In this document: one piece after another, positions 3,144 to 21,039 of the stretch
Position numbering within the stretch: the stretch's first letter is position 1
How the letters are laid out: every line of letters begins with the position of its first letter
Origin: Pyrodictiaceae archaeon
GTDB taxonomy: Archaea; Thermoproteota; Thermoprotei_A; Sulfolobales; WANQ01
Reading direction: 5' to 3'
DNA: 32,622 nt
NCBI GenBank assembly: GCA_015521735.1
Contig: WANQ01000026.1
Span: forward strand, 1 to 32,622
The notes under the pieces: generated by a model
Told to the model about the DNA's origin: nothing
What the model saw: the letters and a program-made list of their open reading frames with translations, nothing else
Database searches by the model: none
Program-made: the position numbers and the translations under genes

Positions 3144-4970
3144 CTACTCTTCCTCTAGTTCAGGTTTTATTGGTATGTAATAATATTCACCTATACTCTT
3201 TTGATACCTATCTAGATAGCTTCCTTCCTTGTTTACACGGGGTCTGCCTGTCTGTGGATCACGTCTAAACGTTATTCCTAGATCCTTAAGGAACATATTC
3301 ATTGATGTACGTAGTGGTAATGGTTTTGTAGCTTCACCATGGACTCCTGGCTCACCTTTGAACACCATTATTTTGTCGCTTATATAGTCTTGTATGCTTA
3401 CATCGTGTTCTACTACAAATGCTAGTGCTTCTTTTTCTTCAACTATTTTTCTAAGTACTTTAGCTACTGTTAGACGTTCCTCAACGTCTAGGTACGCTGA
3501 TGGTTCATCTAGTAGGTATATGTCGGCTTGTTTTATAAGGCAGGATGCTATGGCTAGTTTTTGTAGTTCTCCTCCACTTAAGTCGGAAGCATTTTGATCT
3601 AGTAGTTTATTTAATCTTAACTTGCGGATGACTTCTGAGTACAACCAGCTTGTAGGGTTGAGGGCGTCAGGATTTGCTTCTTTTAAGATTTTTCTAACAG
3701 TTCCATCAAACATTTTTGGTGAGACATATTGTGGTTTATAGCTTATAGTGTACTTGGTGTTTCTTCCACTTATTTCTCCTTTTTCAGGCTTTAATTCTCC
3801 TGCTAGTATGCGTACAAATGTTGTTTTACCTATTCCGTTTGGGCCTAAGAGTCCGATTACTTCACCTTTATTAGCTTTGCCGGCTTCAACTTTAAGTGAG
3901 AACTCGCCTAGCTTTTTTTCAATGTTAGTCCATTTAATAGCTTCTTCTTGTTTCTTAGTAACTTGTTTTTCGTGTCCATAGACATGGAATTTTATGGGCT
4001 CACTACGTATTCTCATGTTTTCTGCTGGTAGGTATCCTTCTAGGAAATAGTTTATGCCATTCTTAGTACTATAGGGTTTTGAGACTATGCCGTAGACTCC
4101 TGGCTCACCGTATATTACAGTTACTAGGTCGGAGAGATAGTCTAGTACAGCTAAGTCGTGTTCTACGACTATTACGTAATTGTTTTTACTGGCCAGGTAT
4201 TTCCTAATTATTTTAGCCATACGTATTCTTTCACGTACATCTAGGTAGCTACTCGGCTCATCGAATAAATATACATTAGCGTCTTTGCTTATAGTTGCCG
4301 CTATTAGAAGCTTTTGTAGTTCACCCCCACTTATGACATTTATTTTTCTATCCCATATTTTGGTAAGACCTATTTCTTCAGCTATCTCCTTAGCTATACC
4401 TTTATCGTCGGCCTTTAACAGTAGTTCCCCTACAGTTCCTTTAATAAAGCGTGGAACTAATTCTACATATTGTATTTTATGGGCTACTCTCATCTTACCT
4501 GCTGATAAGTCTTTGAAGTAGTTTTGTAGCTCGGTTCCTCTGAAGTACTTCACCACTTCGCTCCATTCAACATCTTTTTCATAATTACCTAGGTTAGGTT
4601 TTAATTCTCCTGCTAGTATCCTAAGGGAGGTTGTTTTACCACTTCCATTCTTACCTATAATTCCAAGTATTTTGCCTTTTACAGGTGTAGGTAGTCCATA
4701 GAGTTTGAAAGCGTTTTTCCCATAGCGGTGAACTACTTTTCGCTCCCATTCATCTGGTAGGTTTACTATGGTAATTGCTTTGTAGGGGCACTTCTTTACA
4801 CATATGCCACATCCAATACATGTTTCCTCATGTATAACTACGTATTTTCTTGATTCATGCAGTTCTATTGCTATCTTTCTTCTCCTATTTAATGGGCAAA
4901 ATCTAATACATTCTAAATTGCATTTACTAGGTTTACATAGATCCTTGTCTACGACAGCTACTCTAACCAT
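3144..4970 (-). CDS. abcE1: ABCE1/Rli1 ribosome-recycling ATPase
   Basis: Splits ribosomes after termination, using two ABC ATPase domains and an N-terminal iron-sulfur domain. The N-terminus has Cys-rich segments for two [4Fe-4S] clusters, including CIGCGICVKKCP. Two nucleotide-binding domains follow in order: Walker A GKNGSGKTT, signature SGGELQKLLIA, Walker B YLFDEPSSYLD; then Walker A GPNGIGKTT, signature SGGELQKLAIA, Walker B YLLDEPSAYLD. Length about 608 residues is normal. I start at the second ATG (4970, MVRVAVVD) because the family begins this way and a TATA-like box lies 26 bp upstream, as expected for a leaderless mRNA; the ATG at 4979 would add MII. Confidence 0.97.
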   Translation of the reverse strand: MVRVAVVDKDLCKPSKCNLECIRFCPLNRRRKIAIELHESRKYVVIHEETCIGCGICVKKCPYKAITIVNLPDEWERKVVHRYGKNAFKLYGLPTPVKGKILGIIGKNGSGKTTSLRILAGELKPNLGNYEKDVEWSEVVKYFRGTELQNYFKDLSAGKMRVAHKIQYVELVPRFIKGTVGELLLKADDKGIAKEIAEEIGLTKIWDRKINVISGGELQKLLIAATISKDANVYLFDEPSSYLDVRERIRMAKIIRKYLASKNNYVIVVEHDLAVLDYLSDLVTVIYGEPGVYGIVSKPYSTKNGINYFLEGYLPAENMRIRSEPIKFHVYGHEKQVTKKQEEAIKWTNIEKKLGEFSLKVEAGKANKGEVIGLLGPNGIGKTTFVRILAGELKPEKGEISGRNTKYTISYKPQYVSPKMFDGTVRKILKEANPDALNPTSWLYSEVIRKLRLNKLLDQNASDLSGGELQKLAIASCLIKQADIYLLDEPSAYLDVEERLTVAKVLRKIVEEKEALAFVVEHDVSIQDYISDKIMVFKGEPGVHGEATKPLPLRTSMNMFLKDLGITFRRDPQTGRPRVNKEGSYLDRYQKSIGEYYYIPIKPELEEE

Positions 4971-4990
4971 TATTATCATCTATGGAATGT

Positions 4991-5000
4991 CGTTATATGT
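4991..5000 (-). promoter_or_regulatory. TATA box of the ABCE1 gene
   Basis: On the minus strand ACATATAACG is centred about 26 bp before the ATG at 4970. This spacing would place transcription initiation at or next to that ATG, suggesting a leaderless transcript and supporting the shorter start. Confidence 0.5.
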
Positions 5001-5053
5001 TTAGGTTTAAGAAGTTTATTAAGTCTTGTGAACTAAATTCTAATGAAGATATA

Positions 5054-5113
5054 AGCTATGATGAGTGGTGACGGCTCTGAATAAGTGATGTGTATTAATC
5101 TGGCTCTGAGCTG
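5054..5113 (+). ncRNA. C/D box guide sRNA (2'-O-methylation), candidate
   Basis: All elements of an archaeal C/D sRNA occur in order in 60 nt: C box ATGATGA 5058-5064; 12-nt guide 5065-5076 (GTGGTGACGGCT); D' box CTGA 5077-5080; 4-nt spacer; C' box GTGATGT 5085-5091 (one mismatch to RTGATGA); 14-nt guide 5092-5105; D box CTGA 5106-5109. The flanks AGC (5054-5056) and GCT (5110-5112) can pair as the terminal stem. By the N+5 rule the methylated residues would be a G opposite C5072 and an A opposite T5101. It fills the gap between the Cgi121 and ABCE1 genes but on the opposite strand. Targets were not identified. Confidence 0.8.
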
Positions 5114-5116
5114 CAA

Positions 5117-5662
5117 TCACTTCAATATCGTTAACGCTATCTTAGTTAACATCGTTAGTTCTAAGTCATTGACGTCCTCGCTTAAATCTATGTCATATAG
5201 TTCCTTAATACGTTTTAAATTAGGTAAGCATTTGCTAAAAGGCTCTTGTATGTTACTGAGTATTTTCCATAGGTTTTCTTTAAGATACTCTAGTTCTCTA
5301 CTACTATAACTAGCCAATACAATGCATGCATTTTCCTTAGGCCTAGCACCTACAAGTTCTATGGCTTCTTTTATTTGTCTTGTAGCAGAGAGATAGAGTA
5401 AAAATTCCATTGCAGGGTTTTTGGCTATGGCTAAGTCTTCTGTATGTGCCTTTAATGCAAGTGCAGCAGCCAGCTTCACCTGTCTTTCAGTGCAGTAGGC
5501 GTTTTCTCTAATTACCTGTATAAATCTATTCTTATTTGAAAGTTCTTGGATGTGGTTGAATATCTTTTCTAATGCTTTGCTTGATGGGGTCTCTAGTTTA
5601 ACAAGTTCTACTTTAACATTATTGATGTAGTTGACTATTTTGCTTACTTCTTCTTGAGACAA
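5117..5662 (-). CDS. cgi121: KEOPS complex subunit Cgi121
   Basis: Cgi121 binds Bud32 and the tRNA 3' end in the KEOPS complex, which makes the N6-threonylcarbamoyl-adenosine at position 37. The 181-residue protein carries the family core near residues 60-115: AYCTERQVKLAAALA, then AKNPAMEFLLYLSATRQI and IKEAIELVGARP, the usual helix-turn and 'Leu-(Ser/Ala)-x-x-Arg-Gln-Ile' pattern. The remaining C-terminal part is less conserved. The first ATG lies 44 nt inside the preceding phosphoribosyltransferase gene; a later start is possible but none is better. Same strand as the PRTase, Ubl and S17e genes, probably one operon. Confidence 0.85.
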   Translation of the reverse strand: MSQEEVSKIVNYINNVKVELVKLETPSSKALEKIFNHIQELSNKNRFIQVIRENAYCTERQVKLAAALALKAHTEDLAIAKNPAMEFLLYLSATRQIKEAIELVGARPKENACIVLASYSSRELEYLKENLWKILSNIQEPFSKCLPNLKRIKELYDIDLSEDVNDLELTMLTKIALTILK

Positions 5663-20983: not shown

Positions 20984-21039
20984 GGTAGTGATGAAAACCA
21001 CCGAGTCGGATAGATGAAGAAGTCTCGCGGAACTGATAT
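20984..21039 (+). ncRNA. Possible C/D box sRNA in a convergent gap
   Basis: C box GTGATGA 20988-20994; 12-nt stretch 20995-21006 (AAACCACCGAGT); D'-like CGGA 21007-21010; degenerate C' TAGATGA 21011-21017; 15-nt stretch; D box CTGA 21033-21036. Flanks GTA/TAT can pair weakly. The 49-nt C-to-D distance is right for archaea, but D' and C' deviate and no spacer separates them. It fits the 70-bp gap between two converging genes. Confidence 0.45.

Follow-up and report, generated by a model that had tools for sequence, protein, structure and literature searches.

Does the gap between the genes for ABCE1 and cgi121 of a Pyrodictiaceae archaeon contain a guide RNA gene, and which nucleotide of the ribosome would such an RNA designate? 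The locus was studied within a stretch of 32,622 nucleotides, hereafter the window. Both genes are on the minus strand and leave a gap at 4980-5116. On the plus strand, positions 5054-5113 read as a canonical archaeal C/D box sRNA gene, unannotated and predicted to be expressed, as laid out below.

3144-4979, minus strand: ABCE1 / RNase L inhibitor (RLI), with PF04068 (Fer4_RLI) and PF00005 (ABC_tran)
5054-5057, plus strand: 5′ strand of the terminal stem, AGCT, of which AGC (5054-5056) pairs with GCT (5110-5112)
5058-5064, plus strand: C box, ATGATGA, kept with the following guide in 136 of the order's 214 genomes
5065-5076, plus strand: D′ guide, GTGGTGACGGCT, whose core (5066-5075) is predicted to pair with 16S rRNA 1058-1067 (E. 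coli numbering)
5077-5080, plus strand: D′ box, CTGA
5081-5085, plus strand: spacer from D′ box to C′ box, ATAAG
5086-5091, plus strand: C′ box, TGATGT
5092-5105, plus strand: D guide, GTATTAATCTGGCT, lineage-specific, with T5101 as the +5 nucleotide
5106-5109, plus strand: D box, CTGA
5110-5113, plus strand: 3′ strand of the terminal stem, GCT(G), GCT being the paired part
5117-5662, minus strand: cgi121 (KEOPS subunit), PF08617, E = 6.5e-11

A sequence check found the C, D′, C′ and D boxes in the order, spacing and positions claimed by an earlier note on this DNA, as well as its guides of 12 and 14 nt (5065-5076 and 5092-5105), its closing stem AGC/GCT and its +5 nucleotides C5072 and T5101. 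The boxes are those of the class (RUGAUGA for C, CUGA for D′, UGAUG-like for C′ and CUGA for D, in this order), both guides are within the range of 9-15 nt, and the AGC/GCT pairing provides the terminal stem (K-turn) of an archaeal C/D box sRNA. When the whole 32.6-kb window was searched with a strict pattern, consisting of C, D′, C′ and D boxes with guide-length spacers, 5054-5113 was the single match; the same pattern had no match in 300 Markov-1 simulated windows. Two elements of the earlier description had to be amended. The sRNA does lie inside the gap, its end being 3 nt from the cgi121 stop codon, but it occupies only the right-hand part instead of filling the gap exactly. It had also been called antisense; it is in fact divergent (head-to-head) with respect to ABCE1 and not antisense to the ABCE1 coding sequence.

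Elsewhere in the window, a looser pattern found a second candidate C/D-like element, GTGATGAAAACCACCGAGTCGGATAGATGAAGAAGTCTCGCGGAACTGA, at 20988-21036 (+), a short distance past the end (20972) of an antiporter-like gene. This looser pattern had no match in 100 simulated windows.

The sRNA was then compared to known families. At the gathering threshold, Rfam models recognized two tRNAs only in the whole window, and no sRNA family at 5054-5113. With a lax threshold, 15 C/D snoRNA/sRNA families matched these positions, all below threshold, the best being sR17 (E = 7e-4). For sR1, sR11, sR17 and snoPyro_CD, the archaeal maximum was 24.4 bits as compared to gathering cut-offs of at least 36 (sR17: 36), and the sRNAs of 12 relatives also gave sub-threshold matches only. 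With scores far under the gathering cut-offs, assignment to a described Rfam family was rejected. The sRNA shares with archaeal C/D box sRNAs such as sR17, sR1, sR11 and snoPyro_CD the same boxes, order, spacing, length (~60 nt), terminal stem and two guides, whereas its guide sequences match none of theirs. It is C/D-like in general and stands outside the described Rfam families.

BLAST searches with the locus showed that the block formed by the C box and the D′ guide is present in many relatives. Conservation was measured with the pattern ATGATGANTGGYGACGGC, allowing at most one mismatch. Within the order, 136 of 214 genomes matched, with all 11 families represented, as did 73 of 118 when only good genomes were counted; 78 of the 214 had no match, and a reversed-pattern control gave sporadic matches only. 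Conservation in relatives, which had been proposed as a check, is thus seen for the C box and guide. Beyond the order, the exact pattern matched three genomes, which belong to two other families of the class, against 0 of 229 for the control. When about 85,000 species genomes were scanned, exact copies of the element were strongly enriched in Thermoproteota; matches in bacteria, mostly without following boxes, look like chance matches, of which about 30 were expected by our estimate. Other parts of the sRNA are also kept among the 134 family members that were read: the D′ box ends in GA in 128, the D box is CTGA in 123, and both features are combined in 118. The terminal stem is not uniform, being absent in 30 of the 134 by a simple test. 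Finally, the same element was observed head-to-head with ABCE1 on a 3-kb contig binned as Njordarchaeota (L155:2488-2505), reflecting either contamination of the bin or a wider distribution.

What would the D′ guide pair with? Its positions 2-11 (TGGYGACGGC) hardly vary, in contrast to positions 1 and 12, which vary freely, as expected for the footprint of a 10-bp duplex. The core pairs over 10 bp, including one G-U, with 16S GCCGUCGCCA, corresponding to E. coli 1058-1067 (-18.4 kcal/mol). In this duplex, C5072 (+5) faces G1061 in a Watson-Crick pair, as judged with the 16S of relatives. When the 16S-23S regions of nine relatives were scanned for 10-bp matches allowing no more than one G-U, GCCGUCGCCA was the only site retrieved. 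The target is itself very stable: GCCGUCGCC is invariant in 65 of 65 relatives with a 16S and A1067 is found in 64, so that one relative differs from the site, at 1067 only. The 16S search suggested by the earlier note has therefore retrieved a site with the G predicted opposite C5072. On the other hand, its remark that both guides end in GGCT, though correct, proved uninformative, as position 12 is T or A in equal shares across the family and the D guide differs even in the sister genus.

The most frequent guide (104 of 134 members) places a U opposite G1064, forming a wobble pair, and T-to-C variants, which occur in several families, are fully Watson-Crick 10-bp complements of the site. Shuffled guides matched 16S equally well in 6% of cases, and the perfect T-to-C variant was equalled in 1.2%. 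Because 6% of shuffled guides do as well, complementarity taken alone is only moderately significant, and the case for the target rests on the pattern of substitutions. Within the core, the greatest variation is seen at two positions, T/C facing G1064 and C/T facing G1061; both changes keep pairing, with a G-U at the methylation position in nine members. Counted as genomes and not as independent events, and with a search pattern that admitted Y opposite G1064 without penalty, 32 pairing-preserving substitutions at these two positions and one G-U at position 11 (33 in all) stand against 8 pair-breaking ones. On this sequence evidence, the D′ guide would most likely direct Gm at 16S G1061, the methyl group being predicted.

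The organism's own target site was deduced from relatives, since neither an Rfam model nor a 515F pattern nor BLAST retrieved its 16S from the assembly. In several relatives (loci L265, L266, L267, L268, L269, L270, L271), the 16S is interrupted at 1056/1057 or 1068/1069 (E. coli), apparently by introns. These interruptions lie at the borders of the guide's target, which therefore remains within one exon. Of the organism's 23S, the assembly contains only the 3′ part (L023:720-2186, contig G000:C15); it is 1467 nt long but covers about 668 model positions, which suggests that it is interrupted by large introns.

A genuine C/D sRNA could also use its D′ guide on another RNA (tRNA, mRNA or other) with a perfect GCCGUCACCA site. 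This would explain the preference for U over C at guide position 5, where T is found in 111 of 134 members though C suits 16S better. However, the C variants, seen in several families, pair with 16S perfectly over 10 bp, and a U/C variation is what a G in 16S can accommodate. Moreover, among the genome's tRNAs (41 Rfam-model matches) and the SRP RNA locus, no run exceeded 7 Watson-Crick pairs; tRNAs and SRP RNA, the two kinds of RNA scanned for this purpose, were rejected as targets for lack of a good match. We consider another target improbable.

The behavior of the D guide is entirely different. It is highly diverse across the family, and even the two genomes of a sister genus in which the sRNA also sits between cgi121 and ABCE1 (G001 and G002) have an unrelated D guide. 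The D guide at 5092-5105, for which the earlier note predicted a target A opposite T5101, matches two sites equally well, each over 11 bp with 2 G-U (-14.0 kcal/mol). One is in the 16S V6 region of a relative (G040) and precedes the D′ guide's site by 44 nt; the other is the D-loop of initiator tRNA-Met. Many members of family f5 (L183-L210) also keep a D guide, ATGTCACCCTC, which pairs with the 23S site AGAGGGUGAYAG over 10-13 bp; these members look like ordinary double guides.

The position of the sRNA gene with respect to ABCE1 recurs in many genomes. The order cgi121/sRNA/ABCE1 is retained in G001 and G002. An ABCE1 start lies within 600 nt of 54 of the 154 elements examined, a set made of overlapping collections in which many of the elements away from ABCE1 are bacterial chance matches. 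In these cases the sRNA is upstream and nearly always divergent, with 55-158 nt between C box and ABCE1 start codon. Divergent adjacency was seen in families f1, f2, f5 (part), f7, f9 and f10 (many loci), and in f8 the sRNA is upstream of ABCE1 on the same strand. For most of f5, and for those members of f3, f4, f6 and f11 that were examined, the sRNA is located away from ABCE1. It lies, for instance, near cgi121 without ABCE1 in f4 and beside a threonyl-tRNA-synthetase-like gene in f5, and in f11 it overlaps the stop codon of a gene for a TIP49-like helicase (the f5 and f11 names being read from translations). The simplest reading is that the position beside ABCE1 is ancestral and that moves occurred later. 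A regulatory link between sRNA and ABCE1 is possible. No clear positional peak of promoter motifs was found upstream of the C box, and in the open-access literature we found no report tying a C/D sRNA gene to ABCE1 and none printing the guide sequence.

The short distance to the ABCE1 start codon in many genomes is also what would be seen if the conserved block were a DNA or 5′-UTR regulatory element of ABCE1 (promoter or operator) and not an RNA gene. But the block also occurs away from ABCE1, by other genes, in four families, its orientation to ABCE1 is flipped in f8, and in most members it is followed by D′, C′ and D boxes whose distance from it varies, making this explanation very improbable. 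A pseudogene or chance motif is hardly credible in view of the order-wide conservation and of the 300 simulated windows.

Taken together, the locus very probably encodes an archaeal C/D box sRNA whose D′ guide serves a predicted Gm1061 in 16S and whose D guide has been replaced between lineages. The RNA would probably arise by divergent transcription out of the intergenic region that it shares with ABCE1, or else by release from a longer transcript. By analogy with known C/D box sRNPs, L7Ae would bind the C/D K-turn and the C′/D′ K-loop, Nop5 and fibrillarin would assemble on the sRNA, and fibrillarin would methylate, at its 2′-OH, the target nucleotide whose partner in the guide lies 5 nt upstream of D′ or D. 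Through 16S 1058-1067, the D′ guide would direct Gm at G1061. One may further imagine a Gm1061 guide inherited across the order, possibly the class, and kept beside ABCE1 through co-regulation of guide production with ribosome recycling/biogenesis by a divergent promoter serving both, one guide being locked while the other evolves freely; we regard this extension as rather unlikely.

Guide RNAs of archaea are generally portrayed as evolving rapidly. The present sRNA family is a counter-example within one order. Among seven species surveyed, not a single rRNA position was guided in every one (Breuer et al. 2021, PMC7994747). The main text of Dennis et al. 2015 (PMC4644070) describes one guide common to several lineages with an unrelated partner guide, at position 2880 of the 23S alignment (E. 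coli C2606), and 16S G1061 is absent from that main text. As with the rRNA sites described there, a shared guide is found here with an unrelated partner; the guide studied here differs in being present in 136 genomes of 11 families, often in synteny. The class is known, and this new member stands out by the unusual conservation of one guide and of the gene neighbourhood. The sRNA family predicts a specific methylation in the 16S head. One of its guides is nearly frozen and the partner guide is repeatedly replaced, often with the gene at a syntenic position, which makes the family a natural experiment in modular guide evolution.
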